Source: Bythopirellula sp.
GTDB lineage: Bacteria > Planctomycetota > Planctomycetia > Pirellulales > Lacipirellulaceae
Reading direction: 5' to 3'
DNA length: 64,000 nucleotides
Assembly: GCA_028285205.1 (NCBI GenBank)
Contig: JANQQA010000208.1
Location: forward strand, 1-64,000
The notes under the pieces are model-generated. The model did not search any database. It saw only the letters and a program-made list of their open reading frames with translations, and was not told the DNA's origin. Position numbers and translations under genes: made by a program. Positions 28,076-51,166 of this stretch are shown piece after piece. Position 1 is the stretch's first letter. Each line of letters opens with the position of its first letter.

Positions 28076-28102
28076 CGGATTCCTGAAAATATTGCAGACA
28101 AA

Positions 28103-29068
28103 ATGAACATCTTAGTTTACTTGGAGCACGATGGAAGCGAAGTCAAGAAGGCGAGTCTGTCGGCCCTGTCGTTTGCTCAGGCTCTAACTCACGGACCGGA
28201 CGACTCTGTCCGGTTTCTTCTCATCGGCGAGAACTTGGATAAAGTGGCCAGCCAGGCTGCGAAGTACGCTCCGACTCTCGTCTTGGAGGCAATGGAGCTT
28301 GCCCACCCCATTGCGGAACGCTATGCACTCGTAATCGCTGACGCCGTTGAATCGCAGCAAGCGGACATGCTTGTTGCGGCATCAACTTCGCAGGCTAAAG
28401 ATATCATCAGTCGATCGGCCGCATTGCTGGGAGGAGCAATGGCAAGCGACGTGGTTGCTCACGCGCGAGTCGGTGAGGAACTGCAACTGGATCGCCCAAT
28501 CTATGCAGGAGCGGTAATAGCGACGGTGGTACTCAAAGGTAGCCCGCAGATCATCACGGTGCAGGCTTCTGCTTACGAAGCATCACCTCCAAGTGATTCG
28601 ACTTTCGCTGTGACTCCTCTCTCGCCTAATCTTGATAACGTCCCTCAGCGCGTTCAGATAATAGATGTCGAAACGAAGCGCAGCTCGCGTCCCGACGTAA
28701 CGGAAGCAGACGTTGTCGTTTCTGGGGGACGAGCTCTAAGAACCAGCGAAGACTTTGAACAGCTCGTCGGCGGCCTGGCTGACGCACTCCACGGAGCAAC
28801 GGGTAGTTCACGAGCACTGGTAGATGGCGGGATCACTCCCAATGAACTTCAGGTCGGTCAAACTGGAAAGATTATCGCCCCCGAAGTGTACGTTGCTCTG
28901 GGCATATCCGGCGCAGTCCAACACTTGGCGGGGATGAAAAATTCCAAGACGGTGATCGCAATCAACAATGACTCTGAGGCGCCGATTTTTGAAGAGGCGG
29001 ACTATGGCCTGGTAGGAGATGTCTACGCAATTGTTCCGGACTTGATCGAACAACTAAATTCAGGTTGA
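28103..29068 (+). CDS. etfA: Electron transfer flavoprotein alpha subunit
   Basis: The 321-residue product carries the FAD-binding signature of EtfA: LQVGQTGKIIAPEVYVALG, then ISGAVQHLAGMKNSKTVIAI and ADYGLVGDVY. VSGGRALRTSEDFEQL precedes it. With EtfB it forms the carrier between the FAD oxidoreductase and the membrane Fe-S protein encoded 7 bp downstream. Length and motifs are normal for the family. Confidence 0.95.
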   Translation: MNILVYLEHDGSEVKKASLSALSFAQALTHGPDDSVRFLLIGENLDKVASQAAKYAPTLVLEAMELAHPIAERYALVIADAVESQQADMLVAASTSQAKDIISRSAALLGGAMASDVVAHARVGEELQLDRPIYAGAVIATVVLKGSPQIITVQASAYEASPPSDSTFAVTPLSPNLDNVPQRVQIIDVETKRSSRPDVTEADVVVSGGRALRTSEDFEQLVGGLADALHGATGSSRALVDGGITPNELQVGQTGKIIAPEVYVALGISGAVQHLAGMKNSKTVIAINNDSEAPIFEEADYGLVGDVYAIVPDLIEQLNSG

Positions 29069-29075
29069 AAGGGCC

Positions 29076-35099: not shown

Positions 35100-38000
35100 C
35101 TAGGAAAAGTGCAAACTAATGATTTCTGATGGCACGTAGTCAAATGAAATGCAAATCCAAGGGTCGTGACTATCGCAATGTTCGGTGTATAGCTCAAGCT
35201 GTCCAAGGTCATCTTCGAGAATGTTGGATCTTCGGGCTGTCGTGAACGGTAGCTTCGTTTTAAGAACTGCCTTACCGCGCTGTCCGTATGGATCATAGAG
35301 CCGAACGACGACACCCTCACCTTCTTCCGCCGGTTTCACGGTGTCTAATATGAGATGCCCTTCCACCAAGAACGCTGATTGACTGGCATCGCCAGCGGGT
35401 CGATTCACTAGCAGCAGCGGTTGGTTGAATGTTGTCGCCTCGCCAACCACATTACCTTTTCGCCAATCGCCTTGATGTGGAACAACCGCGTACGCGAATT
35501 GATGCTTCCCAATGTCACAGTTTTCATCGGGATACGTTGGCGCACGAAGCAAACTGAGAGCAAGAACACCGCGGTCGACGCTAAACCCGTATTTGCAATC
35601 GGTCAGCAGCGTCAAACCATATCCGGGCTCGGAAAGATCTGCCCAGCGATGGCCGGGTACCTCGAATTGGGCCGCGTCGGCGGCCGTGTTGCGATGGGTT
35701 GGACGCTCGGCGAAACCAAATGGCATTTCGAAAGTCGCACGGTCGGAGCGCACGGTCGTCGGGAACAATACCTTCAGCAACTTGTGCTTCTCTTGCCAGT
35801 CTACCTCGCAATGAACTTCTAGCCGGCGAGCATCCGCGTCCAAACGGATCGTCTGTGTCATCTTGCTGCGCTCGCCGATCGCGCGTTCAAAGACGATCTG
35901 AGCTCGCAACGGACCCTGCGATTGAACGTGGCATTTGGTGGCCGGAGCACATGGTAATCCTGTTTCCAGAATTGATGGTTCGACATCCCACGCGTCCCAG
36001 AGACCGGGCCGATCGTCATGGAGCATCAATTTGTTGCCGGGCGCACTGAGGACCTGCTGGCCAGAGGTTAGATCGACAAGTTCCAAGACCTCTCCACTTT
36101 CGGACAGCACCGCTGCTATCTTCCCGTTCTCCAGCCGTAACGCCCCCTCGTGCAATACAACCGTTACGGGAGCGACTGGTGTGTTGTCAGGTACAATCTG
36201 TCCAAACCCTAATGGGGGCGAATCGGTTAGCGAGAGGCCTCGGCCCGCGACAGTGACTACCTCGCGCCGGGGGAAACTCGTTGTGTTTAACGGCACAAGT
36301 TGTGTCGGCTCAGAATCGTCTGGCGTCAAGCACTCGAGCAGTTCGTCTCGAATCGCTTGACCGAATTCCAGGATCGAGGCGAAATCACCTCGCGCTTGTT
36401 CATGCACTTCGGCGATCGAAGATCCCGGTAGGATGTCGTGGAATTGGTTCAACAGTAGTTTCTTCCACAACTGATCGACTCTCTCTTTTGGGTAGACAGT
36501 CTGTGATTCGTTGCGCGCCAGGACGCCCAGCAATTCGATATCGTGCAGCAGCCGCTCGCTTTTTCGCAAGCCTCGCTTCATCATCGCCTGACTCGTGTAC
36601 GTTCCGCGATGCAACTCCAAGTAAAGTTCGCCTATGACGGTCGGAATCGAGCGAGTGTTCTGCTCCAAGCGCTCGAAGAATTGCTCGGGGGAACGTGTCG
36701 TGCAGCGAGGAACTCCCAGAAGGTTTTCAGTTCGGCGTAAGGTCTCAAGCATTTCCGTAGTTGGACCTCCACCTCCATCGCCGTGTCCGAACAGGTAGTA
36801 AGCTTCAAGGCCTCGATCTGAATTCTTGTAATTCGCTGCGTGATAGCGTAATTCTTCGACGTTACAGGTGCCGTTATAGGTGTCAGCTGGAGGAAAATGC
36901 GTCAGTACCCGACTGCCGTCCGGGCTCTCCCAATAGAACGTATGGTGCTGCGGCGACGTGAATCGATTCCAAGATAGCTTCTGGGTTAGAAACCTATCAA
37001 TTCCTGCCTGTTGCATAATCTGCGGAAGCTGCCCTGCATAACCGAAAACGTCCGGGTTCCAAAACTCCGAACACCGTAAGCCAAAGCGGCTCTCAAAGTA
37101 CCTCTGACCGAACAGGAACTGCCTGCACAACGATTCGCCCGCGGGAAGATTGCAGTCAGGCTCAATGTATGTGCCGCCTACAGGGATCCATTGGCCTCCT
37201 TCGACTTTTTCCCGAATCCTGCGAAAGAGGTCAGGATTTTTTTGTTCAATGCACTCGTATTGGTAGGCTTGTGAGCACGCAAAAATGAACTCTGGGTACT
37301 CGTTCATATTGCGGACGGCCGAACTAAAGGTCCTTACGGTCTTCCGATAGGTCTCGGCGATTGGCCATAGCCAAGCTGTGTCGATATGGGCGTGGCCAAC
37401 GGCACTTAGTTGATGACAGACTCCACCATTGCCAACTGCAAGTAAAGCGGCGAGCGCAGTCCGAGCCTCTTCCCATGTGTCACGGTTGTCAGGATCAAGC
37501 GCGTTGCAAACTGCGTTTAGATCGTATCGCAACTGCCCCGCCCAAGCAGAATCCAGGGCGGGTCGGACCAGCGGTTTCTGTCCTGGGCCAATCGATCTAG
37601 ATTCTTGTGGAGGGGTTTGATCGGCGAGCAGCTCATACAGCACTCGCACGTCGTGATAGAGGTCCCATGCCTTGTGATCAAAGCTGCGAATCTCGCAGAG
37701 CTCCAGCCAATGCGAGGGACGCGGAGAAGCTTTTGGGAACGGCAGCCCAGGAATTCCATCCGCCCCCAGCAGATGGTTGCAAGCGACCTCGACAAACACC
37801 GTCAATTCCTCGCCTCCGGCCGCAACATCCAGGAGTCGAGCGGTATCGCGACCAGGATTGAACCCTTGGACCGCTTGGCCATTCATCCAAAGTAGCGCTT
37901 CACTGTTACTCGACCAAGCTAGATCAACGCGACGGCCGTGCCAATGGTCAGGCACATGAATCCTCAGCCGAAACCAATACGTGGCGAAGGTCGGTCCCAG

Positions 38001-38324
38001 CGATTCCCCCATCTCAACCGGTCGAAATGGGAGTTGCATTCCCTCAACGACGGTGATCCGGTCGACAGGTCCAGCGATCTCGAGCTGTTGAACGGGTACA
38101 CGCTCAGGATAGATCGCCTCTGCCAACCGGGTCTTCAGCGATTGAACGCGCCCTAAGATATAGTTGCTTTCACCCAAATACTGTGGCGAACCCGCAGCAT
38201 TGGCAGTGAGCTGCTCAGCCCGCACGTGCTCTGCCTGCGATTTTTCTTGCTGCTGGTGCATCTGTGTCGTTGTAGAGTCTTTTTGTGTCGTTGGAGAGGT
38301 AACGCCGGCAAGGCTCGGGCTCAC
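35100..38324 (-). CDS. Alpha-mannosidase, glycoside hydrolase family 38
   Basis: The 1,074-residue protein has the GH38 zinc motif GHAHIDTAWLWP (about 307-318), the nucleophile region EFWNPDVFGYAGQLPQ (Asp about 425) and GGTYIEPDCNLPAGES. It has the usual length with beta-sandwich domains after the catalytic and three-helix domains. No signal peptide is seen, so it should trim alpha-mannosyl residues in the cytoplasm. It follows the GntR regulator after 15 bp and was probably transcribed with it. The start GTG 38324 is uncertain: ATG 38261 would remove a Ser/Thr/Gln-rich stretch that is not part of the fold. Confidence 0.92.
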   Translation of the reverse strand: MSPSLAGVTSPTTQKDSTTTQMHQQQEKSQAEHVRAEQLTANAAGSPQYLGESNYILGRVQSLKTRLAEAIYPERVPVQQLEIAGPVDRITVVEGMQLPFRPVEMGESLGPTFATYWFRLRIHVPDHWHGRRVDLAWSSNSEALLWMNGQAVQGFNPGRDTARLLDVAAGGEELTVFVEVACNHLLGADGIPGLPFPKASPRPSHWLELCEIRSFDHKAWDLYHDVRVLYELLADQTPPQESRSIGPGQKPLVRPALDSAWAGQLRYDLNAVCNALDPDNRDTWEEARTALAALLAVGNGGVCHQLSAVGHAHIDTAWLWPIAETYRKTVRTFSSAVRNMNEYPEFIFACSQAYQYECIEQKNPDLFRRIREKVEGGQWIPVGGTYIEPDCNLPAGESLCRQFLFGQRYFESRFGLRCSEFWNPDVFGYAGQLPQIMQQAGIDRFLTQKLSWNRFTSPQHHTFYWESPDGSRVLTHFPPADTYNGTCNVEELRYHAANYKNSDRGLEAYYLFGHGDGGGGPTTEMLETLRRTENLLGVPRCTTRSPEQFFERLEQNTRSIPTVIGELYLELHRGTYTSQAMMKRGLRKSERLLHDIELLGVLARNESQTVYPKERVDQLWKKLLLNQFHDILPGSSIAEVHEQARGDFASILEFGQAIRDELLECLTPDDSEPTQLVPLNTTSFPRREVVTVAGRGLSLTDSPPLGFGQIVPDNTPVAPVTVVLHEGALRLENGKIAAVLSESGEVLELVDLTSGQQVLSAPGNKLMLHDDRPGLWDAWDVEPSILETGLPCAPATKCHVQSQGPLRAQIVFERAIGERSKMTQTIRLDADARRLEVHCEVDWQEKHKLLKVLFPTTVRSDRATFEMPFGFAERPTHRNTAADAAQFEVPGHRWADLSEPGYGLTLLTDCKYGFSVDRGVLALSLLRAPTYPDENCDIGKHQFAYAVVPHQGDWRKGNVVGEATTFNQPLLLVNRPAGDASQSAFLVEGHLILDTVKPAEEGEGVVVRLYDPYGQRGKAVLKTKLPFTTARRSNILEDDLGQLELYTEHCDSHDPWICISFDYVPSEIISLHFS

Positions 38325-38339: not shown

Positions 38340-39422
38340 CTACTTCTTGCGGCCTCCGGGCGCAGGGCCAATTGATCCGCCGTCAGTGTACTTCAGCTTC
38401 GCAGGCTCCATAAGCAATGGCCCTTCCCAGCTGTCCACAGTACCACCTGCGGCAAACCAGTCGATGCACGAATCCATGAACTCGGCAGGATTAAGCCGTT
38501 CGAAGGCAGCGACCGGGGGGTTGATGAATTTACCAATCCCTTCACAGTCGATCGTGCATACAGACAACTGATCACCAATCGAGATGCCTTTCTCGCTGGC
38601 TGCTCGAATGACACCCATGGCGGCGGGCAGTGTCACGCACAGCACAGCAGTCGTCTGCTCATCGATCTGCTTAATCCATTTTCGAGCCACCTGCACTCCG
38701 GCTTCAAAGATGTTTTCCTCGATGCCACAAGGCTCATCAATGAGGCGTCCACCCACCTCTTCACTTCTAAGCCAATTGCCCCATTCATCAATTCGTGCCT
38801 GCGTGATCGAGTTATGCCCTTGGATGTTAATGCAGTCGATGCGACGATGGCCGAGTCGCTGCAGGCGTCGCATGGTCGTTGCGATTAGCCTCGGTGGAAA
38901 CAATACGATCGAGGGCATGTTGAAGTGCGACAGATCTTCAGATAGGGCTACGACGCCCCGCGCCTCGGTCAGCAGATCGGTCATCCAAGGGGATATAGGT
39001 TCCGAACTCGTGACCAGGAAGACTCCGTCGAAGGTCCTGATGGTCTCTGTGAGCACTGGATCACCCCAGTGATGATAGTTGACAACACGGACTCGACCGC
39101 CGCGAAGCTGTGCGGCGGCCTCGACAGCCCCTAACCATAGCTGGATATCTGGCGAAAATGATTGCGGCGAAATGCTGGGAGAAACGAAAGCAATCTGCAT
39201 TCCTTCAGCTTTGGAGCGTGCTTTCGAACTTAGTACTAAACGCCTATTGGCAGCACGCTCCAGGAGGCCTTTTTCTTCAAGATCATCAAGCGCTTTTCGC
39301 AGCGTGACACGGCTAACGCCGATGTCGTCGGCAAGATCTCGCTCCGCAGGGATACCAGTGAGTGCGTAATCTCCCTTCAGGATGCGGCGTTCTAGCAAAC
39401 TGGCGATGCGGACGTGTTTCAT
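38340..39422 (-). CDS. GntR-family regulator with a LacI-like ligand-binding domain (AraR-like architecture)
   Basis: The 360-residue protein has an N-terminal GntR winged helix (1-70; IPAERDLADDIGVSRVTLRK is the recognition region) and a PBP1/LacI-like sensor domain (about 75-350; MQIAFVSPSISPQSFSPDIQ). It lies directly upstream of the GH38 alpha-mannosidase. A palindrome resembling those upstream of the nearby secreted hydrolase and PEP-CTERM genes lies 51 bp before its own start. It is therefore the best candidate for the repressor of this regulon and likely autoregulated. Its inducer is presumably a mannose-type sugar, though nothing in the sequence proves that. Confidence 0.9.
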   Translation of the reverse strand: MKHVRIASLLERRILKGDYALTGIPAERDLADDIGVSRVTLRKALDDLEEKGLLERAANRRLVLSSKARSKAEGMQIAFVSPSISPQSFSPDIQLWLGAVEAAAQLRGGRVRVVNYHHWGDPVLTETIRTFDGVFLVTSSEPISPWMTDLLTEARGVVALSEDLSHFNMPSIVLFPPRLIATTMRRLQRLGHRRIDCINIQGHNSITQARIDEWGNWLRSEEVGGRLIDEPCGIEENIFEAGVQVARKWIKQIDEQTTAVLCVTLPAAMGVIRAASEKGISIGDQLSVCTIDCEGIGKFINPPVAAFERLNPAEFMDSCIDWFAAGGTVDSWEGPLLMEPAKLKYTDGGSIGPAPGGRKK

Positions 39423-39921
39423 GGGATTCGAGGTAACCGCGATGAGAGCTATGAAGCCATTTAGACCAATTGATAGTCCAAACTTGGTATATTTTTATCG
39501 TAATATGCAATCGTGTATATGGGAAGTAACAAATGGCGGAATCCACTCCAGTTGACATCCTGACATCAGCGCTCGATCTCGAAGGAAACAGTTGAGGATC
39601 TTGCCGGAGACCCTAAGATTCTCCAAACAGCAGGCAAAGGCGGTCGGATTTTCCCAGGAATCTCAGGCACCGATTCCTTACCGATACAGATTCATACTTC
39701 TCACGAAACCGCCGATTATCTAATGCAGTACGAAGCAACAAATGATTTGCCGCGCCGCAATAATGCGGATCTTTCTCTCCACAAATTTCGCAACGGCCAA
39801 TTATCGAGCAACAGCCATCATCCCCGCCGATGGCATGGGCAATGATGACGCAAGCAACGCTCATGGTACGACATGAATTCGCCGAACACCTATTCAAGTG
39901 CGCCGGGACGCCACGGACGAG
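39423..39921. other. Intergenic region upstream of the GntR gene
   Basis: It contains the operator-like site at 39473-39492 and, overlapping it, another half-site TTAGACCAAT at 39461-39470. The remainder up to the end of the hydrolase gene shows no gene. I see no clear terminator for the hydrolase. Confidence 0.55.
39473..39492. promoter_or_regulatory. Operator-like palindrome A, upstream of the GntR gene
   Basis: ATAGTCCAAACTTGGTATAT matches the 20-bp consensus GTATACCAAATTTGGTATAC at 14 or 15 positions; the right half is nearly perfect. Its position 51 bp upstream of the regulator start suggests autoregulation. It is the weakest of the five sites. Confidence 0.55.
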
Positions 39922-42900
39922 TTACAACTGCCCCTCAAAACCGTTCAGTAGAGCGGTAAGTAGATCGTCTTCAGTAAAAATCGAATCTTCCGCCTCGATG
40001 AGCAGATCTACCGATTCTTCGCGAAGCAACAACGCTTCGATGATCTGTTGTGGGAGAACTACGTCCGCATATGCCACGCTTGGTGTCCGTTCGGTTTCCG
40101 CTTCAAGGTCTGTTCCCTTGCGCGTCGGACTGTTCGTACTGAACATTGCGAATCCTGCGTCCACCGCGACCACACGATCACCTGTCTCAGTCTCGGCCCA
40201 GTCTACCGTTGATAGATTATCAGCGCCACTGAATTGAGCCGCTGGCACTGGCGCGGATTCAATACCCTCCAATGCTATTACGCTTGAGGCTCCGAAATTA
40301 CGTTGCCACAACAAGAAATCTGCGCCATCAACTAGCCCATTCTCGGAGCCGTCCGCACCGGTGCCCGGCGAAACGCTAGTCGAGTATTCAGCGGACCACA
40401 TAGTCAAATCATCGTCGTTGACCGTCCCGTCGGAGTTGTAATCTCCCGGCAAACCCGACGGCGACTCCACATCGAAACTCGCCGTCAACAAGCTTTGGCC
40501 GATGTTGCCTCGACCATCAGCTGGTGTGAGGCGTAGCTGGTAAGTCCCGGCTGGCAGGCTTGACGTGTCCCAAATGTACTGGTCGTCCCAAGTACTATGC
40601 CCCGCCGAAGCATCATAGCCACTCTGCGAGAAGGCACTGAAACCTTCGTACGCATGATCGAGCTCATTCCAGTTAGACCCACCATCATTCGTCCACTCAA
40701 TGCGAACGTGGTTGTCTTCTTGCTGAGTCCATTGATCCATCAGCCCCGTCTTCCAATCGTCGGTCATTGACCATGTTACCGACACTGTGGGCTGCGTCGG
40801 ATTGACGGTGGCTAGGGCTGACTCAAGCGTGGGAGCAACCAAATCTCCAAAAGAGTGCAATACGCGGACGCTATCGATCGGAATGTTGTTGCCCGTGATC
40901 CGGAAGTCAGACATGCCATTCTGTCGATTGGCAAACAGTGCATCGTCCAAATAGAAACGGGCGGTCCGCCACTCTCCGCTGTTTTCCAGAGCTACGGAGT
41001 TGGCATTCCGGTAGGGGGCACCTGTGGAATCGTATTGGACGTTCAGGTTGCCTGATCCAACGTCTCGATAGACAACCTCGACCACTGCGTTCAGTCCCGC
41101 TTGAACCGCATTCGCAAAGTCGTTGTCAACGCGCATGTAGATGTACAACGAGGTCGCCGCTCCCGAGAGCTGCCTGACACTACGACCATCATTCGTGGTT
41201 GCAGTCGTCTGTCCGTCGCCGGCGAGTTCCACCTGCTCCAGGCCAATGCTTGTGTTCGTTGTACCGAGGTCAGCGTGGACTGTGAGCATTCGTTCTTTCA
41301 CTACGCGAACGCGACGGACAAACAAGTTTCCACCTACTTTCTCAAGCCGAAAGTCTGTGTCGCCGTTTTGATTGTTGCCGAAGTAAGCGTCGGAAACATC
41401 GAAACGATGAGTTCGCCAGGTCCCGCTATCGGTCAGTGCTGCGGATCCGCCCACCGCGTAGAATGCTGCCGTGCCGTCGTATTGAAGTCCGAACTGACCC
41501 GTGCCTGAATCCAGATACTCCACTTCGATCGTCACGTCACGTCCATCGGCCTCTTGAGACAGGAAGCTGTCATCCACGGCAAAATAGAGGAAGTCGTCTG
41601 TCGAATAGATCGCATCGAATGCATTGCCATCGACAGAGAACATCATCGTTTGCGTCTGACCGTCGGGGTTGTCAACTGAGGTGAGTCGCTCGTTACCGGA
41701 AGCCTGCCAAACCGCCTCACCGCCAACGTTCGATCGATTCTCAAGCTCAACCTCGGTGGGGATAGTGTCGTTGATCGAGATCTTATCCTGCAGCGCCTGC
41801 TTCGCCACGCCGGTCAGTGCCATCCACCAGTCGTTCGGTCTCGGATCACTTATCTGGTAGGTCAGCGGATCGCCCTGGGCGTCGGTGTCCGGAACGGGCG
41901 GGTCGTCGCTGGCGGGGATGATATTGGTACCTTCGTCGTACTCATCGAACATGCCGATAAAGTACCAGGGAGCGTCAGTCTGGTTAGCCGCATCGCTGAT
42001 CATCCGCCAATAGAAGTTTCCGTCTTCGCGATCACGCGATGTGGCAGTGTCATCATTTTGGAGGTGCGTCCAAGAGAAGCCCGGGAAGATATGAGGTATG
42101 TGATCGGTCACGCCGTTCAAGCGTATCTCATCGGACGCATAAGAGTCTCCGCCCCTCCAATATCCCTGCCAGGGTATATAGGCATCGTGCATGCCAGCAT
42201 TGGCAATCTGTGCGCTGGATTCGGTATGGCGCCCCGCGCCCACCACATAAACGCCGCGCGACTTGAAGTAATTGAGTAAGTCGGTCTGCTGCGCGGTCGT
42301 GTAGCTGTTCCCGCCACTTACATAAAGACCAAAAATCGCTACGACCGGCTTGCCATCTTCACGCTGGTAGTGCGAGTCGTTCAAGATATCCATGCGGTTG
42401 GTATCAGTCAGAAACTCCCAGTCGTCTTTGACCTGCTGAACTCTTTCCCAGCGTTGAGCCTCGGTACCACCGTTTTGAATGTCATACTCGATGGCCCAGG
42501 TTCGTCCCTCGCGGTGGGCCGCGTCGCGTGCATTGGTTACGGGCCATTGCGGCTCACCGACATAGGAACCGTCAGGCTGCTTGAACATGAACGAGGGGGT
42601 AAACCTCTGCACGAGCACTCCATCAATGTCATGCTCTCGCATCCACTGAAAGTGGCGATTCACCACGGATGAGTTGGCTGAGGAGAATAGGTAGGCTTGT
42701 TCCCCACTGGCAGTGGTCACGCCAGGAACAGCAAAAACTTCCGTCGAGTCGTAGTCATTCACGTCAGGCCACTGCTCGATCGACCAATTGCCAGGTTGAC
42801 CCCAATGTACGTAGCCTTCGTCGGCAGCATCGTTGGGTGTATTGAACCAGCCCTGGTAACCGGCGAGCACTTTTCCTTGTAGTGTCGACGCATCCACGTC

Positions 42901-43461
42901 GCGACTTACCCCAGCGTAGGGCGATTCCCAAGGCGGCGACCACACCCAATCAAGGCCGCTGTTGGCGAACGGTTCGTCCGATAACTCAACGGATGCAATC
43001 GGTACCCCATTCGTGACGACGCGGAAGTCACGACCATTCGTGCCGTTGCCAAGCTGCACATTATCGAGGTAATGGAACGAACTAACGAATTCTTGGGTAT
43101 CGACGCGAGAAGAGCGCGTGTGAAATTCCGTCTGATCAAAATTTTCAGAGACACTATCATACTGCACTCTGATGGTTCCAGAGCCTTCGTCGTAGTAGTT
43201 CACCTTGACGAACATCGTGTCGCCAACCTGAAATCCTGGAAAGGCCGCTGGTGAGGTATTGTAGTAGAGGTAGGCAGGACCAACGTGGACGTCGATGCCT
43301 TCACGCTGCTCCAGCACCCAGGTCCCATCACCGCTATTGGAGGAGGGTGCATCAAAAGTGACGACCGTCAGCAACTGCCGCTGTTCGAGCCTTTCGAAGG
43401 AGGTCTTACGACCCGCACGAAGGCGATTGACGCCAAATGGTTTTTCTGAGTTTCCGCCCAT
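39922..43461 (-). CDS. Large secreted GH71/GH99-like hydrolase with LEPR-box, carbohydrate-binding modules and dockerin repeats
   Basis: From ATG 43461 the 1,179-residue protein opens with a LEPR-box, TSFERLEQRQLLTV (20-33), a planctomycete export-associated motif. A beta-sandwich (about 35-180) precedes a GH71/GH99-like catalytic domain (about 190-560) beginning GKVLAGYQGWFN, with WMREHDIDGVLVQRF and MFDEYDEGTNI. Two more carbohydrate-binding-like beta domains (about 575-700 and 715-850), another beta domain and dockerin-type repeats (GDYNSDGTVNDDDLTMW, GLVDGADFLLWQRN; about 1005-1055) follow. It has no PEP-CTERM. An in-frame ATG 240 bp upstream lacks export features. Operator B lies at its promoter, so it is a probable regulon member. 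Exact activity is inferred; endo-alpha-mannanase-like is plausible. Confidence 0.85.
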   Translation of the reverse strand: MGGNSEKPFGVNRLRAGRKTSFERLEQRQLLTVVTFDAPSSNSGDGTWVLEQREGIDVHVGPAYLYYNTSPAAFPGFQVGDTMFVKVNYYDEGSGTIRVQYDSVSENFDQTEFHTRSSRVDTQEFVSSFHYLDNVQLGNGTNGRDFRVVTNGVPIASVELSDEPFANSGLDWVWSPPWESPYAGVSRDVDASTLQGKVLAGYQGWFNTPNDAADEGYVHWGQPGNWSIEQWPDVNDYDSTEVFAVPGVTTASGEQAYLFSSANSSVVNRHFQWMREHDIDGVLVQRFTPSFMFKQPDGSYVGEPQWPVTNARDAAHREGRTWAIEYDIQNGGTEAQRWERVQQVKDDWEFLTDTNRMDILNDSHYQREDGKPVVAIFGLYVSGGNSYTTAQQTDLLNYFKSRGVYVVGAGRHTESSAQIANAGMHDAYIPWQGYWRGGDSYASDEIRLNGVTDHIPHIFPGFSWTHLQNDDTATSRDREDGNFYWRMISDAANQTDAPWYFIGMFDEYDEGTNIIPASDDPPVPDTDAQGDPLTYQISDPRPNDWWMALTGVAKQALQDKISINDTIPTEVELENRSNVGGEAVWQASGNERLTSVDNPDGQTQTMMFSVDGNAFDAIYSTDDFLYFAVDDSFLSQEADGRDVTIEVEYLDSGTGQFGLQYDGTAAFYAVGGSAALTDSGTWRTHRFDVSDAYFGNNQNGDTDFRLEKVGGNLFVRRVRVVKERMLTVHADLGTTNTSIGLEQVELAGDGQTTATTNDGRSVRQLSGAATSLYIYMRVDNDFANAVQAGLNAVVEVVYRDVGSGNLNVQYDSTGAPYRNANSVALENSGEWRTARFYLDDALFANRQNGMSDFRITGNNIPIDSVRVLHSFGDLVAPTLESALATVNPTQPTVSVTWSMTDDWKTGLMDQWTQQEDNHVRIEWTNDGGSNWNELDHAYEGFSAFSQSGYDASAGHSTWDDQYIWDTSSLPAGTYQLRLTPADGRGNIGQSLLTASFDVESPSGLPGDYNSDGTVNDDDLTMWSAEYSTSVSPGTGADGSENGLVDGADFLLWQRNFGASSVIALEGIESAPVPAAQFSGADNLSTVDWAETETGDRVVAVDAGFAMFSTNSPTRKGTDLEAETERTPSVAYADVVLPQQIIEALLLREESVDLLIEAEDSIFTEDDLLTALLNGFEGQL

Positions 43462-43497
43462 TCGTTCTCTTTCCGTGAATAGTAAACCAAGTGTGTA

Positions 43498-43517
43498 GTA
43501 TACCAAAAACGGTATAC
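43498..43517. promoter_or_regulatory. Operator-like palindrome B, upstream of the large GH71/GH99-like gene
   Basis: GTATACCAAAAACGGTATAC has perfect outer half-sites GTATACC/GGTATAC. On the minus strand its end forms a -10 box TATACT (complement of 43497-43502), with TGTCAA 16 bases upstream. It lies 36 bp before the hydrolase ATG. Confidence 0.75.
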
Positions 43518-43529
43518 ATTGACACAATT

Positions 43530-43549
43530 CTGTCAAATGTTTGGTACAG
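43530..43549. promoter_or_regulatory. Second, weaker operator-like site B2
   Basis: CTGTCAAATGTTTGGTACAG shares its right half, TTGGTACAG, with operator C and lies 32 bp (about three helical turns) centre to centre from site B. The spacing would allow cooperative binding of two dimers. Confidence 0.45.
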
Positions 43550-43830
43550 CGAAGTCGTCCGATCACCTTCAAGCGGATCTCCACGACATCCGTACTTCGC
43601 GATTGGAATGACCCGGAAGTCCGCGGAGGAACTAAGTTTTTTCTTCCCCCGACAGCCAAGCGACGGACTCGGCTGGTCATTATCTCCTCGAAACTGGTCA
43701 AGGCTTTTGCGCGGGGAAGTCACCGACGAGTGGGCTACTTTTCCTGGTGGTTGGACAGCAATTGCTGGCAATACGGGGGGTCACAGTTCCTTCAAATCTC
43801 GGCAAATCTTGAAGAAGCCTCTCCAAAAAC

Positions 43831-43858
43831 TTGACAGGTAGACCAATATTGGTACAGT
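43831..43858 (+). promoter_or_regulatory. Promoter with embedded operator C, upstream of a PEP-CTERM gene
   Basis: TTGACA (43831-43836), a 16-base spacer and TACAGT (43853-43858) form a sigma-70-type promoter. The palindrome GTAGACCAATATTGGTACAG (43838-43857) fills the spacer and reaches into the -10 box, an arrangement suited to steric repression. Confidence 0.7.
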
Positions 43859-44077
43859 GAACGTAGGTAGCTATCGCGGTGAATTCCCCTTCGCGATCGT
43901 TATTTGACAGCCATACTGAGCAAAATCGATGCGAATTGTCACCTGGTGGACTCGCCAACGAGGACCTCGGTGTGGCGACGGTTAAGCTTTTCAAGGAATC
44001 GCTGACTCAGCCGAGCCCAAATTGCTTTGTGCGATCGAATTACTTTTCTGTTTACTTTTTAGAGAGGGAGATGACTC

Positions 44078-45004
44078 ATGAAACGCGTACGTTTGGCAAG
44101 TACCATGGCCGCCTTAACGCTGGCCGTGTCGGTAATGGTCGATCAATCCAGCGGAGCTACGTTTCGGTATCGACTGAGCGGTAACTGGACGACGATCACC
44201 GATGGGAACGGCCCCGGATGGGGACTCAACCCGAACAACGATGGAAGCCCTGGTGCAAGCCTGCCGGGCTCATCCGATGATGCCCGAATCAACTGGGGCG
44301 GTAACACAGTAACCATCGACTCAGCAGTTCCCACCGTAAACAATGTCCAAATTGGCGTTGATGAGAGTGGTACGCTAGTCGTAGACAACGGTGGGGAGAT
44401 ATCTGCGAATCTTGACGTTCTGGCTGGTAACAACAACCCCAATGCCAAAGGCGACTTGGTTGTGAATGGCGGTGGTACTGTGAATGTTGGCAGAATTCTG
44501 TGGTCAGCGCAGAGTGGATCAGACGGCGATATTACCGTCAACAGCGGCGGACAGGTAAATGTTGCAAGCCACCTGTGGTTGGGCGTAACTGGGACATCCA
44601 CCATTGATATCAGTGGTACGATCAACCAGACCGGCGGTATTCTTGGCCTAGGCACCAATGACGCATCGTCCGCCACTGGCGGTACCGCAACTGTGAATAT
44701 CTTGGATGGCGGTCTGCTGGCTCTCAACAACATTTCAGGCGCTGCAGGTCTGCCCTCAATCCAGGCAGGATCCATTATCGATATCACCGGATCCGGTGAA
44801 CTCACACTTCCCGATGACTTTGTTGGGCTGCTGGGTGAGTATGAAGCCGCAGGCAAGCTTGTTGGCAATGGCGGATCGACTCCGTTGACGATCGATTTGG
44901 TCAAGAATCCCGGCTTCACGACAGCCTATATCATCCCGGAACCTGCCGCGCTGCTTCTGCTGGGCTTAGGTTTGGGCGGATTGATGATTGGCAGACGACG
45001 CTGA
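44078..45004 (+). CDS. PEP-CTERM protein with a repetitive beta-helix-like domain, mannan-locus member
   Basis: The 308-residue protein has a signal peptide (ALTLAVSVMVDQSSGA), a Gly/Asn/Val/Thr-rich repeated region (SDDARINWGGNTVTIDS, VQIGVDESGTLVVDNGG, GGTVNVGRILW, SGTINQTGGILGLGT) that looks like a short parallel beta-helix, and a PEP-CTERM tail PEPAALLLLGLGLGGLMIG ending GRRR. No catalytic site is evident. The same module occurs in the protein at 49230-50306 and, in diverged form, in the C-terminal part of the GH99-type enzyme at 46651. It is preceded by operator C and followed by a strong terminator. It may bind glycan at the cell surface; that is inference. Confidence 0.85.
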   Translation: MKRVRLASTMAALTLAVSVMVDQSSGATFRYRLSGNWTTITDGNGPGWGLNPNNDGSPGASLPGSSDDARINWGGNTVTIDSAVPTVNNVQIGVDESGTLVVDNGGEISANLDVLAGNNNPNAKGDLVVNGGGTVNVGRILWSAQSGSDGDITVNSGGQVNVASHLWLGVTGTSTIDISGTINQTGGILGLGTNDASSATGGTATVNILDGGLLALNNISGAAGLPSIQAGSIIDITGSGELTLPDDFVGLLGEYEAAGKLVGNGGSTPLTIDLVKNPGFTTAYIIPEPAALLLLGLGLGGLMIGRRR

Positions 45005-45047
45005 TCGACAGAGATCTGCTCGTCGCTCACCATCAATAGCATCTACG

Positions 45048-45090
45048 GAGTTGGATTAAGTCGCCTTGCGGCTTAGTCCAACTCTTTTTT
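45048..45090 (+). terminator. Strong intrinsic terminator after the PEP-CTERM gene
   Basis: A 17-bp stem (two G-T wobbles) runs from GAGTTGGATTAAGTCGC to GCGGCTTAGTCCAACTC over a 3-base loop and is followed by TTTTTT (45085-45090). It ends the rightward transcript before the convergent hydrolase gene. Confidence 0.92.
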
Positions 45091-45184
45091 GTGCACCAAT
45101 CGAGGGCCTTGGCGGCGCGAGGGTCTCTCTGCCGGTGCGAGCCAACGCCCCTCGCAGACAGAGATCCGCGGAGATCAGACAAAG

Positions 45185-46507
45185 TCAGTCAAACAGTGCC
45201 TGCGGAATATTCTTCGTGAGTGGCGCTTCCCCACGCATTAATGCTCCTGCTTTGCCCACCAGCCGCAGATATGCGTCGCTCGGTAGCCCCTCGTAGTCGA
45301 TGAACTTCGCACCGTTGCCGGTCGGAGGATCATTGGTGCACTTGAAGATCGCCGTACCTTCGTCGACCTCGTCGAACATGGCCACATATAACATCTGGCA
45401 ACGCGCCTGTTTGGCACCCACGATCTGCGACCACAAAAACTCACCTTTTTTCCTCGGGATGAAGTTGAATTTTTCACCCTCCATGTTGTACCAACTGAAT
45501 CCAGGAAACACGACAGGCATGTATTCCATGCCATGATTGTCGCACCACCGCTTGTCGATTCGCCAGTATTTTCGGACATGATGCTCAACATCGGCCTCTG
45601 TGCGATACCTGCCGACAGTCCAGGGGCTGATGACATCAGCGAGTTTGAGGACTTCGTGCAGTTCTGGATCGGTGATCGAATCTCGTTCCTGTAAACGCCA
45701 ACCGGTAGGAACCCCCAGCATCACCGCACATCCGTCTGCTTTCAGAAATTCGATGAGTTCCCGACATTCTGCCAACGAGTACTTCCGCGGTCTGTTCTTG
45801 GAGCCAAATCCAACGCCCCAAATAGCTACGACTGGTTTGCCGTTATGCTGTTGGTAGGTTTCGTCTTCGGTCAGTTGCAATTCGGTGCGAAGATTCTGCC
45901 AATCGTCGCGGACAATTTTCACTCCGCCGCCGGATAGGCCTGTGAGATCGTACATCAGCGCATAGGAGCGTCCGGCTTGCTGCGCCCCTTGCCTGACGTG
46001 GCCAAGTACCGCGTTTCTGTGACGCAACTTGGGTTCAAAATTCAACTCGCTGGCGAAACGCTGCAAGAATACCCCGTCGATGCCGTAGTCCTGCATCCAC
46101 TGAAAGTGCCGTAGCACCGTTTTTCGATTTGCGCTGCTAAATACCTTGGCGATCGTACCATCGGCGTGCCTGAAACCCGTTTCATAGACTTCGTCAGGGT
46201 CCAATTCGGAAATGTCAGGCCACAAGTCCACCGTCACATTACCCGGCGCGAAGCTCTGACGACCCTTCTTTGCCCAGTGCGTCCACCCGAGCCCGGCGCC
46301 GTCGCCCTCACAGTTGAACCACCCCTGGTAGCCGCACATGACCTTGCCTGTGAGCGTACTCCGATCCACCACGGCGACACGGCGCGACGATGCGGTTTCT
46401 TGATTCGCGTTCTTACCGTCTATCGGTTGATCGGCGGCAATGACAGAAGCGTTGGCTCCGATCGTCAGGGGCGAAACGCAAACAAGCATGCGGAGGATTC
46501 GATTCAT
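45185..46507 (-). CDS. Secreted GH71/GH99-like hydrolase
   Basis: From ATG 46507 the 440-residue product begins MNRILRMLVCVSPLTIGA, a signal peptide. The start is supported by GGAGCGG a few bases upstream. The single catalytic domain shares KVMCGYQGWFNCEGDGAG, FQWMQDYGIDGVFLQRF and AMFDEVDEGTAIF with the large hydrolase at 39922, so the two are paralogues. This family is related to GH71/GH99 and acts on alpha-glycans; specific activity is not established here. It lacks accessory modules and a PEP tail, so is probably periplasmic or freely secreted. It diverges from the GH99-type gene, sharing operator D. Confidence 0.85.
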   Translation of the reverse strand: MNRILRMLVCVSPLTIGANASVIAADQPIDGKNANQETASSRRVAVVDRSTLTGKVMCGYQGWFNCEGDGAGLGWTHWAKKGRQSFAPGNVTVDLWPDISELDPDEVYETGFRHADGTIAKVFSSANRKTVLRHFQWMQDYGIDGVFLQRFASELNFEPKLRHRNAVLGHVRQGAQQAGRSYALMYDLTGLSGGGVKIVRDDWQNLRTELQLTEDETYQQHNGKPVVAIWGVGFGSKNRPRKYSLAECRELIEFLKADGCAVMLGVPTGWRLQERDSITDPELHEVLKLADVISPWTVGRYRTEADVEHHVRKYWRIDKRWCDNHGMEYMPVVFPGFSWYNMEGEKFNFIPRKKGEFLWSQIVGAKQARCQMLYVAMFDEVDEGTAIFKCTNDPPTGNGAKFIDYEGLPSDAYLRLVGKAGALMRGEAPLTKNIPQALFD

Positions 46508-46546
46508 GATCCGCTCCATTTTGTCTACGAGCACTCGCGCAAAACC

Positions 46547-46574
46547 TTGACAAGTATACCAAATTTGGTATATT
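46547..46574 (+). promoter_or_regulatory. Promoter with embedded operator D between divergent hydrolase genes
   Basis: TTGACA (46547-46552), 16 bases and TATATT (46569-46574) form the rightward promoter; GTATACCAAATTTGGTATAT (46554-46573) fills the spacer. On the opposite strand the palindrome also offers TATACT (complement of 46553-46558) as a -10 box for the leftward gene, so one operator can serve both. Confidence 0.82.
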
Positions 46575-46650
46575 CGAGGAATCTGAAAGTAGCTACCGAG
46601 AGACTGGGTAGGCTGCGGATGGCACAATCACGCGTGATGAGTAATAGCAA

Positions 46651-48741
46651 ATGTTTCGATGGTCGCTGATGCCGCTGATACTCCTTGCGTGTGCTGACGT
46701 CTGTCAGGCAGACCCAACGGTCGGTGTTTATTACTACCCGTGGTGGGGCGAAAGTCAAGGTGGACATACTCTCGATCAGACGGTCCGTGCACACACGACT
46801 CCCAACCATCAGTTGCCAGCGGTTGGGGACGAGTACAGTAGTCGCGATGCAGGCGTAATTTCAGCTCACATCGACCAAAGCCATCTGGGTAACATCTCGA
46901 TGTGGTCCATGAGTTGGTGGGGGCCGAATTCTTTCGAAGATCGGACTATTCGCAACCACATCCTCCCACATCCACGTGCCGACGAGCTCAGCTACACAAT
47001 CCATTACGAGTCGTCTGGGCGTCTTGGTAGCCACTCGAATCCAAACTACAACAACCTGATTCCCGACTTCCTGCATCTGGGCAACAACGTCTTCAACGAT
47101 CCAAACTACATGCGTATCGATGATCGGCCGGTCGTGGTGATGTATCTCAGCCGGGTATTCTTCAAAGATGCTGCTGGCGCGACTGCGCTAAGCAATTTGC
47201 GTACGACCATGCAGAATCAATTCGGCTACGATCCGTACATCATCGGTGATCACTTGTTCGGTTCCGTTGCAGATGGAGCTGCCAACCTCGATGCGATTAC
47301 CGGCTTTGACGTCTACGGCCAAGTATTTCGTAGCGGCGAGGCGACGCAGCGAAAAATCGACCAGTTGGAGCGAATCTACTCCAACGCGCAAGCCGCTGCG
47401 GATAGTGCCGGTGTCGACTTCGTTCCAGGCCTGACTCCCGGCTACAACGACAAGGCCGTTCGCGCCGGAAATCTTCCGGCACCTCGCTATCTTACGGGCG
47501 AAGACTTTGGGACCACCATGGAAGCTATGTTGGAAGATGCAGTATTGCCGCATACGGACGTGGACATCAATGATTTAATCTTAGTCAACTCATTCAACGA
47601 ATGGCACGAAGATACACAAATCGAAGCCAGTGTGATTGGCCCCTCGACGAACACCGATGACTCGCCCAGCGGTATGGATCTGACCGTGGGCAGATTCTAC
47701 GAAGGGTATGGCAATAAGTATTTGGATATTCTGCGTAATGCCACCCAGACGACCCCTCCCATCACTCCTTCGGAAATCCGCTGGGGGCGAGGTACAGCTG
47801 ATGGCAATTTTGTCGGCAATTACACCGACGTGGCAAACTGGAACGCAAACGATGTTCTACCGGATGCCCAACGAGCACCCAGCGTCAGTGACCGAGCCCG
47901 AGTAGATCGCTCAGGCACCGACATGACCATAGACTCGGTAATCACAGCCAACGATTTCTTATTTGGGGTCGATGAGGCCGGCCAAACGTTTTCCTTCGAA
48001 GCAAGTGCAGATGTGACACTCGCTTCGAATCTATTCGCTTCCTTCAACAGTGGCGATATTGACTTCGACGTCAAGGCGGGTGCCAGCCTCTCAATCGGTG
48101 GAAACTTCTTGCTTGGCCAACATGATGGCAATCAAAGTGGCCAGCAGATGATGAATGATGAAGATATCACCGTGACCATCGAGGGCATCGTCGACAGTGC
48201 GGGCGATGTGATTCTTGGAGATCGCTACGGACTCGTGTCGGCGACGACGTCGTCGGATGTGGATGTCTTGTTGGATATCACGACGGGCGTGCTTCGAGCA
48301 AACGATATCAAGTTTGCGCCCAATGGCGACCTAGCCACCTACTTGAACCCAGCGCTGAACAACTCAATGGGCGTCCGAATCGGTGACGAGGGCATGATTG
48401 TCATCGTAGGGTCTGATTCGACCGCGAAGATGAACAGCCTGATCGCTGATGGGTTGCTTTTCACGGATAGCCTCTTAGGCACCCTAGCAGTGAGCTATGG
48501 CGGAATCGATACCATTGTGGAGGTAGTACTTGGCGGAGACTTTGACAGAGATGGAGATGTCGACGGCGCTGACTATCTCGTGTGGCAACGAGACCCAGGC
48601 GTCGGCGACTTGACGGATTGGCAGAAAAACTACGGCATCCAATCTGGCGCACCCGTGAGCGTCGTGCCCGAGCCAGCCAGTTTGGTGTTGGCGCTTGCTG
48701 GTACGGTTGCACTTGTCAGCATTGCGCGAGGCCACCGTTAG
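46651..48741 (+). CDS. GH99-type hydrolase with a PEP-CTERM tail
   Basis: The 696-residue protein has a short signal peptide (MPLILLACADVCQA), a GH99/WbsX-like catalytic domain (about 20-370) with VGVYYYPWWGE, HIDQSHLGNISMWSMSWWG and NEWHEDTQIEAS, and a Gly/Asp-rich region (about 375-600) with the same SDRARVDRSG...GVDEAG pattern as the stand-alone PEP-CTERM proteins beside it. GDFDRDGDVDGADYLVWQRD is a dockerin-type repeat, and VPEPASLVLALAGTVAL then RGHR is the PEP-CTERM tail. GH99 enzymes cleave inside alpha-mannose chains, so the enzyme probably acts on mannan-type glycans at the cell surface. Operator D lies 78 bp upstream. The codon at 46669 is a possible later start. Confidence 0.86.
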   Translation: MFRWSLMPLILLACADVCQADPTVGVYYYPWWGESQGGHTLDQTVRAHTTPNHQLPAVGDEYSSRDAGVISAHIDQSHLGNISMWSMSWWGPNSFEDRTIRNHILPHPRADELSYTIHYESSGRLGSHSNPNYNNLIPDFLHLGNNVFNDPNYMRIDDRPVVVMYLSRVFFKDAAGATALSNLRTTMQNQFGYDPYIIGDHLFGSVADGAANLDAITGFDVYGQVFRSGEATQRKIDQLERIYSNAQAAADSAGVDFVPGLTPGYNDKAVRAGNLPAPRYLTGEDFGTTMEAMLEDAVLPHTDVDINDLILVNSFNEWHEDTQIEASVIGPSTNTDDSPSGMDLTVGRFYEGYGNKYLDILRNATQTTPPITPSEIRWGRGTADGNFVGNYTDVANWNANDVLPDAQRAPSVSDRARVDRSGTDMTIDSVITANDFLFGVDEAGQTFSFEASADVTLASNLFASFNSGDIDFDVKAGASLSIGGNFLLGQHDGNQSGQQMMNDEDITVTIEGIVDSAGDVILGDRYGLVSATTSSDVDVLLDITTGVLRANDIKFAPNGDLATYLNPALNNSMGVRIGDEGMIVIVGSDSTAKMNSLIADGLLFTDSLLGTLAVSYGGIDTIVEVVLGGDFDRDGDVDGADYLVWQRDPGVGDLTDWQKNYGIQSGAPVSVVPEPASLVLALAGTVALVSIARGHR

Positions 48742-48889
48742 TTCCCTACACTCCCAGCAGCCAGCGATGATCGTGAAGGTCAAATATCCGATGCGGAGGA
48801 GAATCTACATGAACGTGCTAGATGTCGAGCGGGCACGCGCTAGGTTATGTTCGCTGCTAGAAATTGCAGGGAAGCGTGACCCAGATCGC

Positions 48890-48917
48890 TTGACAAGTAT
48901 ACCATATTTGGTATACT
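48890..48917 (+). promoter_or_regulatory. Promoter with embedded operator E
   Basis: TTGACA (48890-48895), 16 bases and TATACT (48912-48917) form a near-consensus promoter. GTATACCATATTTGGTATAC (48897-48916), an almost perfect palindrome, fills the spacer and overlaps the -10 box. Confidence 0.85.
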
Positions 48918-49229: not shown

Positions 49230-50306
49230 ATGAAAACTTTTGGCGCAAACAAGCAGATCGCAGCGGTCCTCGTCGCGATTCTTACGATGGTCGATCCTGT
49301 TGGAGCTGAGGTCCTACGCTACCGGACCGGTGGTCCATGGGAAGATGTCAGTGATGGCGCTCTCAATGGTTGGGGTGTGAATCCTGATCAACCAGGCGTG
49401 GACGTGCCGATGGCGGACGACGAGGCACGCATTAACTGGGCAGGCAGCACAGTTACTTTAGACTACGAAGCTCCTACGATTAATCGACTGCTGATTGGCG
49501 TGGATGAGAGCGGCACGCTAGAAATCAACGAGGGCGGCGTGCTGAATGCAACCGAAGACGTGGCCGTTGGCAACAATGGTTTTGTCGATGGCTCGCTCGA
49601 TGTAAATGACGGAGCAGTCGTAAACGTCGGTAGGATTTTGTGGGTGGCGAGAGGACCGGTTGTGAATGATGTACTAGGTTTTCTCAACATCAACAGTGGT
49701 GGGGTCGTGAATGTCACGAGCCACCTTTGGTGGGGTTCTACCGGCATCGCCGAAGTAAACATCAGTGGGACTCTCAATCAAACCGATGGAATCCTCGGGC
49801 TTGGCTCGGCGGACTTTAGTACATTCGGTGGGACAGCTACAGTAAACGTCCTCGACGGTGGCGAGCTGAATCTGAACAACATTCACGCCGGCGGCACACA
49901 ACTGTCGATTCAACCCGGCTCGAAAATTGACATCAGCGGATCGGGTCGAGTGACGTTGCCAGGCGACTTTGTCGAAGTGCTTGAAGGTTATCGCGATGCC
50001 GACCTGCTGTTTGGTAACGGCGTTGCCGGCGCAGTGGATATCAATGTCGAGACTTCAGGAGGTGGCCCTGGCGATTTTGATGGAGACGGCGACGTTGACG
50101 GGCAAGACTTCCTTGCCTGGCAACGCAACCCTTCCGTAGGCGACTTGTTCAACGATTGGCAGCCAAACTACGGCTCTGGCGGCGTTATGCAAACCGTCGT
50201 TACAGTCGCTGCAGGATTGTCAGCCGCTAGTGTGCCCGAGCCAGCCAGCATGAGTCTGATCGTACTAGCCTCGCTGTACGTTGTCGGACAGCGACGCCGT
50301 AACTGA
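49230..50306 (+). CDS. PEP-CTERM beta-helix-like protein, paralogue of the gene at 44078
   Basis: From ATG 49230 (GGGAG upstream) the 358-residue product has a signal peptide (IAAVLVAILTMVDPVGA), repeats such as DDEARINWAGSTVTLDY, LLIGVDESGTLEINEGG and SGTLNQTDGILGLGS, a dockerin-type repeat GDFDGDGDVDGQDFLAWQRN, and tail VPEPASMSLIVLASLYVVG ending QRRRN. The repeat region closely parallels the protein at 44078-45004 but adds the dockerin-like unit. It is preceded by operator E. No enzyme motif is visible; a glycan-binding or surface-matrix role in the mannan system is inferred. Confidence 0.85.
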   Translation: MKTFGANKQIAAVLVAILTMVDPVGAEVLRYRTGGPWEDVSDGALNGWGVNPDQPGVDVPMADDEARINWAGSTVTLDYEAPTINRLLIGVDESGTLEINEGGVLNATEDVAVGNNGFVDGSLDVNDGAVVNVGRILWVARGPVVNDVLGFLNINSGGVVNVTSHLWWGSTGIAEVNISGTLNQTDGILGLGSADFSTFGGTATVNVLDGGELNLNNIHAGGTQLSIQPGSKIDISGSGRVTLPGDFVEVLEGYRDADLLFGNGVAGAVDINVETSGGGPGDFDGDGDVDGQDFLAWQRNPSVGDLFNDWQPNYGSGGVMQTVVTVAAGLSAASVPEPASMSLIVLASLYVVGQRRRN

Positions 50307-50573: not shown

Positions 50574-51155
50574 ATGTCAACCGATGACCCTCGTCCCACC
50601 CCCGATGTGACATCGCTGCTCTCGCAAGCGACCGACGGCGACCAAGCGGCAGCCAATGAGCTGTTGCCACTGGTTTATCAGCAACTACGGGCGATCGCAC
50701 AGAACCAAATGGCCGGTGAAAAACCCGGGCATACGTTACAGGCGACCGCGCTGGTCAACGAAGTCTTCCTCCGTATGTTTGGCCGTCGCCAGCTTTCCTG
50801 GCAGAACCGCGCCCACTTCTACGCGACTGCGGCGCAGGCGATGCGGCGAGTGTTACTGGATTACGCCAAGGCCAAGGGCCGGCAGAAGCGGGGTGGCGAT
50901 CGCCAGAAAATGCCGCTTAACGTCGCGGATTTGGCCGCTGTCGAAAATCCTGACCAAATCTTGGCGCTCGACGCGGCGCTTTGTCGCTTAGAAGAGCAGA
51001 ACCCCGAAGCAGCTGAAATCGTGCGGCTGCGGTTCTACGCCGGGCTTAGCATCGATCAGACGGCCGACGCCCTCGAGATGGCTCCACGCACAGTCGATCG
51101 ACGGTGGAAGTTCGCCCGCGCGTGGCTCTACAACGAACTTAGCGAACAAGACTAA
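50574..51155 (+). CDS. ECF-type RNA polymerase sigma factor (planctomycete SigK-like family)
   Basis: The 193-residue protein matches the ECF-like family common in planctomycetes: LLPLVYQQLRAIAQNQM, LVNEVFLRMFGRRQ and HFYATAAQAMRRVLLDYAKA in region 2, and VRLRFYAGLSIDQTADALEM in region 4. It would direct RNA polymerase to a specific promoter set. The Ser/Thr kinase gene follows after 11 bp, a frequent pairing in this phylum, in which the kinase is thought to control the sigma factor or its signal. No anti-sigma factor is encoded nearby. Confidence 0.92.
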   Translation: MSTDDPRPTPDVTSLLSQATDGDQAAANELLPLVYQQLRAIAQNQMAGEKPGHTLQATALVNEVFLRMFGRRQLSWQNRAHFYATAAQAMRRVLLDYAKAKGRQKRGGDRQKMPLNVADLAAVENPDQILALDAALCRLEEQNPEAAEIVRLRFYAGLSIDQTADALEMAPRTVDRRWKFARAWLYNELSEQD

Positions 51156-51166
51156 AGGCAAAGCGA

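Follow-up and report, generated by a model that had tools for sequence, protein, structure and literature searches.

A conserved 20-bp palindrome as the likely operator of an AraR-type GntR regulator in a glycan-degradation cluster of Bythopirellula sp.

A 64,000-nucleotide stretch of the Bythopirellula sp. genome (contig JANQQA010000208.1, assembly GCA_028285205.1; hereafter the window) contains a gene cluster that probably degrades mannose-rich sugars, together with the gene for a GntR-family regulator. Five copies of a 20-base-pair (bp) palindrome accompany these genes. Its refined consensus, GTATACCAAWWTTGGTATAC (25 sites from seven genomes), is very likely the operator of the cluster's AraR-type GntR protein, which would act as the sugar-released repressor of a local regulon. 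The features are listed below, with the regulator and putative operators ahead of the glycoside hydrolase (GH), transport, and PEP-CTERM genes.

38340-39422, reverse strand: regulator with a GntR winged helix-turn-helix (residues 5-60) and a LacI-type Peripla_BP_3 domain, an AraR-type architecture by Pfam, predicted structure, and orthologs
39473-39492, unstranded: putative operator before the regulator gene, ATAGTCCAAACTTGGTATAT, 51 bp from the ATG; the weakest of the five, at 19.9 bits
43498-43517, unstranded: putative operator of the GH99-like gene 39922-43461 (reverse strand), forming a TATACT -10 box at 43497-43502, with no TTGACA in the usual place
43838-43857, unstranded: putative operator of the PEP-CTERM gene at 44078, with TTGACA at 43831-43836 and a -10 box, TACAGT, at 43853-43858
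46554-46573, unstranded: putative operator between the divergent GH99-like genes 45185-46507 (reverse strand) and 46651-48741 (forward strand), with TTGACA at 46547-46552 and a -10 box, TATATT, at 46569-46574
48897-48916, unstranded: putative operator of the PEP-CTERM-like gene at 49230, with TTGACA at 48890-48895 and a -10 box, TATACT, at 48912-48917
35100-38324, reverse strand: GH38 alpha-mannosidase (Pfam, 6.8e-87), directly downstream of the regulator
32830-34851, reverse strand: sodium:solute symporter (SSF) by Pfam, downstream of GH38
39922-43461, reverse strand: large GH99-like protein (GH99a; Pfam GH99 at 2.7e-6, below cut-off)
44078-45004, forward strand: PEP-CTERM protein 1 (PEP1; TIGR02595 above the NCBIfam cut-off), with predicted beta-strand repeats
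45185-46507, reverse strand: GH99-like protein (Pfam GH99 below cut-off)
46651-48741, forward strand: GH99 protein (GH99c; Pfam 4.5e-17, above cut-off) with a C-terminal PEP-CTERM-like tail, seen by eye (family match below cut-off)
49230-50306, forward strand: PEP-CTERM-like protein 2 (PEP2), about 50% identical to PEP1; tail seen by eye, no family match

The regulator combines an N-terminal GntR winged helix with a C-terminal LacI/periplasmic-binding-type sugar domain, the arrangement of the AraR subfamily. This is apparent from Pfam (PF00392 at 3.5e-12 and PF13377 at 1.6e-10, both above cut-off) and from an AlphaFold model of moderate confidence (mean predicted local distance difference test score, pLDDT, of 75), for which Foldseek matches LacI-family domains including AraR 3tb6. 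Residues Glu27, Arg38, and Arg42, invariant in the seven orthologs, correspond to Glu34, Arg45, and Arg49 of the GntR-family protein FadR, a correspondence that derives from equal-length match ranges (22-54 with 29-61, offset 7) and not from a printed alignment. FadR Arg45 is a guanine-contacting residue, according to PMC4494728. Orthologs with at least 52% identity occur in seven of 43 genomes of the family, that is, in the Bythopirellula genome itself and in six relatives (G011 and G012, 79% each; G002, 75%; G009, 54%; G010 and G041, 52% each); a further 13 matches in the family are merely about 30% identical. Among 396 sampled genomes of the order, the same seven are the only ones to match at E 1e-80 or better. 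Similar palindromes are found in the surroundings of the relatives' orthologs, and the regulator gene has one upstream in all seven loci, at a distance of 51 to about 350 bp.

The initial annotation described five window sites sharing GTATACC-N6-GGTATAC. All five are present where it placed them, but their fit to that pattern is uneven: there are no mismatches at 43498 and 48897, one at 46554, three at 43838, and four, read from the sequence, at 39473. With up to three mismatches allowed, the pattern matches the window six times, against 0.69 expected from shuffles, and the longer TTGACAN-GTATACC-N6-GGTATA matches three times at the same tolerance, against 0.01 expected. As a held-out test, a symmetric matrix was built from 21 sites of the six relatives' clusters with no window sequence, and it scores 46554 at 30.4 bits, 48897 at 30.0, 43838 at 26.9, 43498 at 25.2, and 39473 at 19.9. 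Nothing else in the window reaches 9 bits with this matrix, and a reversed-matrix control gives zero matches in the window. Two of the six pattern matches, at 20303 and 42160, were rejected as sites since the matrix does not recover them at 9 bits or more. The sixth, weaker site proposed at 43530 likewise falls below 9 bits and was dropped; by eye it is merely a half-site, TTTGGTACAG. Positions C6, C7, G14, and G15 are invariant across the 21 relatives' sites. An additional half-site, TAGACCA at 39462-39468, adjoins the operator at 39473, and G011, G012, and G002 show it next to their own regulator operators.

Promoter anatomy was surveyed across the seven loci with a matrix that here includes the window sites, yielding 33 sites at 12 bits or more. 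In 17 of them, TTGACA (14) or TTGACG (3) lies one base before the operator, which gives a 16-bp spacer; by rough arithmetic about 0.03 such coincidences are expected. In 15 of these 17, the hexamer made of operator positions 16-20 and the base that follows agrees with TATAAT at four or five of six positions, so that the operator supplies the -10 box, as expected for a steric repressor. The proposal that three sites fill the 16-bp spacer between TTGACA and a -10 box is correct as to spacing (43838, 46554, and 48897) but needs amending, in that the greater part of the -10 box is itself palindrome sequence. Wherever PEP1 and PEP2 were found, which is in six of the seven loci (neither was found in the G009 stretch), each is preceded by a TTGACA/G-operator promoter; GH99c is so preceded in the window, G011, and G012.

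Beyond the window, the distribution follows the regulator. A model designated R1, built from the 21 relatives' sites with the Bythopirellula genome held out of training, was run on the 43 family genomes. In the Bythopirellula genome it returns 10 matches, each of the five sites being counted once per strand. The core TATACCA-N4-TGGTATA, searched at up to two mismatches in the same 7.9-Mb genome, finds only these five, all inside 9.4 kb; neither R1 nor the core pattern yields extra targets there, and two extra two-mismatch matches on other contigs (C128 and C210) are both missing from the core-pattern result. The six relatives have 55 R1 matches (14 in G011, 13 in G012, 12 in G002, 4 in G009, and 6 each in G010 and G041), all within the regulator's own cluster, where they represent 28 sites, 21 from training and seven new. 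The 36 genomes without an ortholog give 21 scattered weak matches in eight genomes, the best at 14.4 bits against 19.3 in the window. When each genome was left out of the matrix in turn, its sites were recovered, with further places in G011 (18.3 and 9.3 bits), G012 (18.2), and G009 (19.2), while the reversed-matrix control matched once in G011 (16.6) and once in G012 (14.8) and not in the others. The genome-wide scan suggested by the initial annotation therefore confines the matches to the regulator's cluster, and operator and regulator are kept together in six relatives. The literal GTATACC-N6-GGTATAC fares less well: at up to one mismatch it is present in five of the 43 genomes (three matches in Bythopirellula), a control pattern matching once each in G036 and G040, and among the relatives it is conserved only in G041, as one perfect match about 8 kb from the ortholog. 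Its distribution makes it a poor probe across relatives, but a degenerate form occurs in all six.

A sister group of regulators, with 13 loci in the family, has the same architecture and the helix GVSYMTARRAV in place of GVSRVTLRKAL, so that Tyr replaces Arg38. At up to two mismatches, TATAGCA-N4-TGCTATA is found at 10 of the 13 sister loci and at none of the seven loci of the cluster's own regulator, and three control palindromes give one or two matches each over the same 51 kb. A second model, R2, built from the 10 sister sites and run on the 43 genomes at E 2, gives a match 105-301 bp ahead of every sister gene but that of G007 (12 of 13); the sites of G034 and G035 lie outside the training set. 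Among the 30 genomes that have no sister gene, R2 matches once, weakly. The two operators share their geometry and differ mainly in a single base pair of each arm (C6 to G6), and position 9 is shifted as well. A changed helix paired with a changed palindrome of equal geometry supports direct binding by the GntR protein, and together with the co-conservation of regulator and operator it favors, on sequence grounds, the earlier suggestion that GntR controls these sites. Further helix differences (V39M, L41A, and K43R) accompany the Arg38 replacement, so reading the switch through one residue is conjectural. Examples of the sister operator are L024:1266-1283 and L025:1306-1323, and a GH99-family protein and DUF1559 proteins are encoded near the sister regulator L083 of G041.

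That the sites exist, hold a fixed position in many promoters, and co-occur with the regulator can be read from the genomes themselves. The best-supported account of the sites is a sugar-released repressor acting on the spacer and -10 box, for which we infer binding, repression, and inducer. With no inducer present, a regulator dimer would occupy the operator over the spacer and -10 box and keep RNA polymerase from transcribing the PEP-CTERM and GH99-like genes, and the regulator would likewise repress its own gene along with GH38 and the symporter gene downstream. Binding of a mannose-containing sugar, perhaps imported by the symporter, to the LacI-type domain would release the block. The regulon would be local, with five operators in 9.4 kb devoted to an alpha-mannoside-containing glycan.

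Several observations weigh against this account. Nearly half of the surveyed sites (16 of 33) have no TTGACA/G at the fixed place, and two of the 17 that do have a poor -10 box (TCTATA). At 39473 the site is weak and, read on the strand of the gene, forms no -10 box (ACTATC), and the sites of G009, G010, and G041, about 250-350 bp ahead of the regulator gene, may belong to a different gene. In the Bythopirellula genome, a backwards control of the core pattern matches eight places, against five for the core itself; since the count is not above the control, the evidence lies in the clustering of all five sites within 9.4 kb of 7.9 Mb. R1 was limited to 150 scored candidates per genome, and its filters lose weak matches, for which reason the core pattern was also searched in the Bythopirellula genome. 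The literal pattern, at up to one mismatch, occurs once each in G015, G025, and G042, all without an ortholog. On the enzyme side, GH38 was not found in the G009, G010, and G041 stretches (three of six relatives), the GH99 assignments at 39922 and 45185 are below the Pfam cut-off, and the fused sulfatase domain of G002 has 7oze and 6s20 as its best PDB matches, with 9FVT of the diatom mannan pathway ranking 42nd of 44.

Other explanations of the palindrome have to be set against the same data. The GntR protein could be an activator or dual regulator that remodels the promoter from within, in the manner of MerR, instead of a steric repressor. In favor of this, the operator sits between a perfect TTGACA and a -10 box, the 16-bp spacer being 1 bp below the optimum of 17 bp, and some sites are paired about 100-140 bp apart. 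Near-consensus -35 and -10 boxes require no activator, however, GntR/LacI-type sugar regulators are mostly repressors, and an operator over the -10 box is a classical polymerase block; we therefore consider activation unlikely. Slightly less probable still is that another regulator binds the palindrome, either the XylR-like LacI-AraC protein encoded at 31428-32579 or an unlinked LacI/GntR protein, and that GntR is a mere neighbor. The recognized sequence is not derivable from the protein alone, and the second sugar regulator adjoins the symporter. However, a tblastn search of the regions surrounding the clusters of the six relatives detects nothing homologous to the 31428 protein, whereas GntR is present in all six; the GntR gene has an upstream operator in every one of the seven loci; and the sister GntR proteins have an altered palindrome of the same geometry upstream of their own genes.

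A regulator-free origin, in which the sites are promoter sequence copied along with paralogous PEP-CTERM and GH99 genes, can claim that PEP1 and PEP2 are paralogs of about 50% identity with similar promoters. It does not account for gntR and the GH99-like genes, which are not PEP paralogs yet have the site, nor for a palindrome kept over loci whose regulators are 52-79% identical while the 36 regulator-less genomes hold weak scattered matches only, and we give it hardly any weight.

The symporter gene lies near the regulator in all six relatives, and the order of GH38 after the regulator is the same in G011, G012, and G002; the GH38 gene probably shares a transcript with that of the regulator. 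Five of the six relatives that carry the regulator also have a near-full-length homolog of GH99a (63-71% identity). None of the 36 regulator-less genomes does; four of these have a partial match of 33-37% identity. The GH99a protein is probably secreted, its N-terminal FERLEQRQLL motif being what we take as the basis for this. The 46651 protein matches a PDB endo-alpha-1,2-mannosidase at 9.5e-11. The inventory of three secreted hydrolases and two PEP-CTERM proteins needs one adjustment, in that the 46651 hydrolase also seems, by eye, to end in a PEP-CTERM signal. The PEP1 model is beta-rich (pLDDT 79) and matches no PDB entry at E 0.001 or better, its top match being the autotransporter TibA (5e-3, match probability 0.20), and no PEP1 homolog besides PEP2 was found in the Bythopirellula genome. 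The XylR-like protein at 31428-32579, a LacI-type domain with an AraC helix-turn-helix, adjoins the symporter gene and is without an operator. An extracytoplasmic function (ECF) sigma factor followed by a serine/threonine protein kinase (50574-53470) lies directly past the second PEP-CTERM-like gene. Grouped at 26042-31196 are an FAD-dependent oxidoreductase, an electron transfer flavoprotein alpha subunit, and an iron-sulfur/cysteine-rich protein, which resemble one electron-transfer operon.

An alpha-mannan utilization locus comprises a secreted endo-alpha-mannanase-type enzyme, an exo-alpha-mannosidase, and uptake. Compared with this definition, the window has a clear GH38, one GH99 above and two below the cut-off, and an SSF symporter. 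Mixed as the enzyme evidence is, a glycan that contains alpha-mannosides is the most likely substrate. The mannan of the initial annotation is less certain than the operator; GH38 was not found in half of the relatives' stretches, and the relatives' clusters contain sulfatases. These lie inside the cluster in five relatives and in the same five are fused N-terminally to a homolog of the 45185-46507 GH99-like protein, as judged from the tblastn span in all five and checked with Pfam in two. Examples are L034:2568-5291 and L040:16825-19560, the window homolog at 45185-46507 being the GH99-like part alone. The G009 cluster includes GH92, plus a fucosidase beyond the symporter. Tblastn with five relatives' sulfatases as queries found none in the window. 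Loss of sulfatases from this lineage was rejected, as the Bythopirellula genome holds 90 matches, including one that is 61% identical to the fused domain, unlinked on contig C209 (G000:C209:74518-75867); the function may simply be unlinked there. In the relatives the glycan is perhaps sulfated. The diatom sulfated alpha-1,3-mannan pathway uses a sulfatase fused to a GH99-related enzyme, according to PMC13063451. The fusion makes diatom C6-sulfated alpha-1,3-mannan a suggestive candidate, but the G002 sulfatase is not close to 9FVT (42nd of 44), and that rank is the reason we do not name diatom mannan as the substrate.

Local sugar regulators with palindromic operators are a well-known kind, with AraR of Bacillus subtilis among the closest. 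It has the same domain architecture, its effector domain 3tb6 is matched among many LacI-family domains, and the DNA-binding domain matches 4egy. AraR represses several carbohydrate promoters through palindromic boxes with the consensus At(T/A)tGTaCGTAcaa(A/T)T, a GT-N4-AC palindrome (PMC4218819), whereas the 20-bp palindrome described here has the core ACCA-N4-TGGT. The targets also differ, being GH99-like, GH38, and PEP-CTERM genes and not arabinose genes. Because the consensus GTATACCAAWWTTGGTATAC is not an AraR-type operator, we do not file the regulator as an AraR ortholog. The effector domains of NanR and GabR differ from that of this regulator. Their half-sites are nearly the same, TGGTATAW for NanR (FadR subfamily) and ATACCA for GabR (MocR subfamily) against TGGTATA/ATACCA here, but according to PMC4494728 they form direct repeats, in contrast to the inverted repeat of this operator. 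With the sulfated alpha-1,3-mannan locus of Polaribacter (PbSulf1-GH195, GH92, and PbSulf2; PMC13063451), the relatives' clusters share a sulfatase-GH99-related fusion in five genomes and GH92 in one other; they differ in that the G002 fused sulfatase is not closest to the S1_51 enzyme 9FVT, and no sulfatase was found in the window.

New, in our assessment, are an operator unlike that of AraR and built from an inverted NanR/GabR-like half-site, the link to PEP-CTERM-type proteins, and the pair formed with the sister regulators. Judged on titles and the starts of abstracts among the matches listed, no description of such a regulon in Planctomycetota was found in the literature. A broader and tentative proposal, which we hold as possible but doubtful, is that the AraR-type GntR repressors of Lacipirellulaceae keep TATANCA-N4-TGNTATA and switch target through Arg38-C6 (TATACCA) or Tyr38-G6 (TATAGCA). 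The surface PEP-CTERM proteins, co-induced within this regulon, might then capture glycan for the hydrolases, as a planctomycete counterpart of SusD-type capture.

To our knowledge, few transcription circuits for glycan use have been worked out in Planctomycetota, and we know of no simple marker such as SusC/D by which their glycan loci could be delimited. The conserved operator would provide an objective boundary for one glycan regulon, and it would tie two PEP-CTERM-type proteins of unassigned role to glycan degradation. The cluster regulator and its sisters may further serve as a natural pair for probing how specificity changes in a GntR recognition helix.

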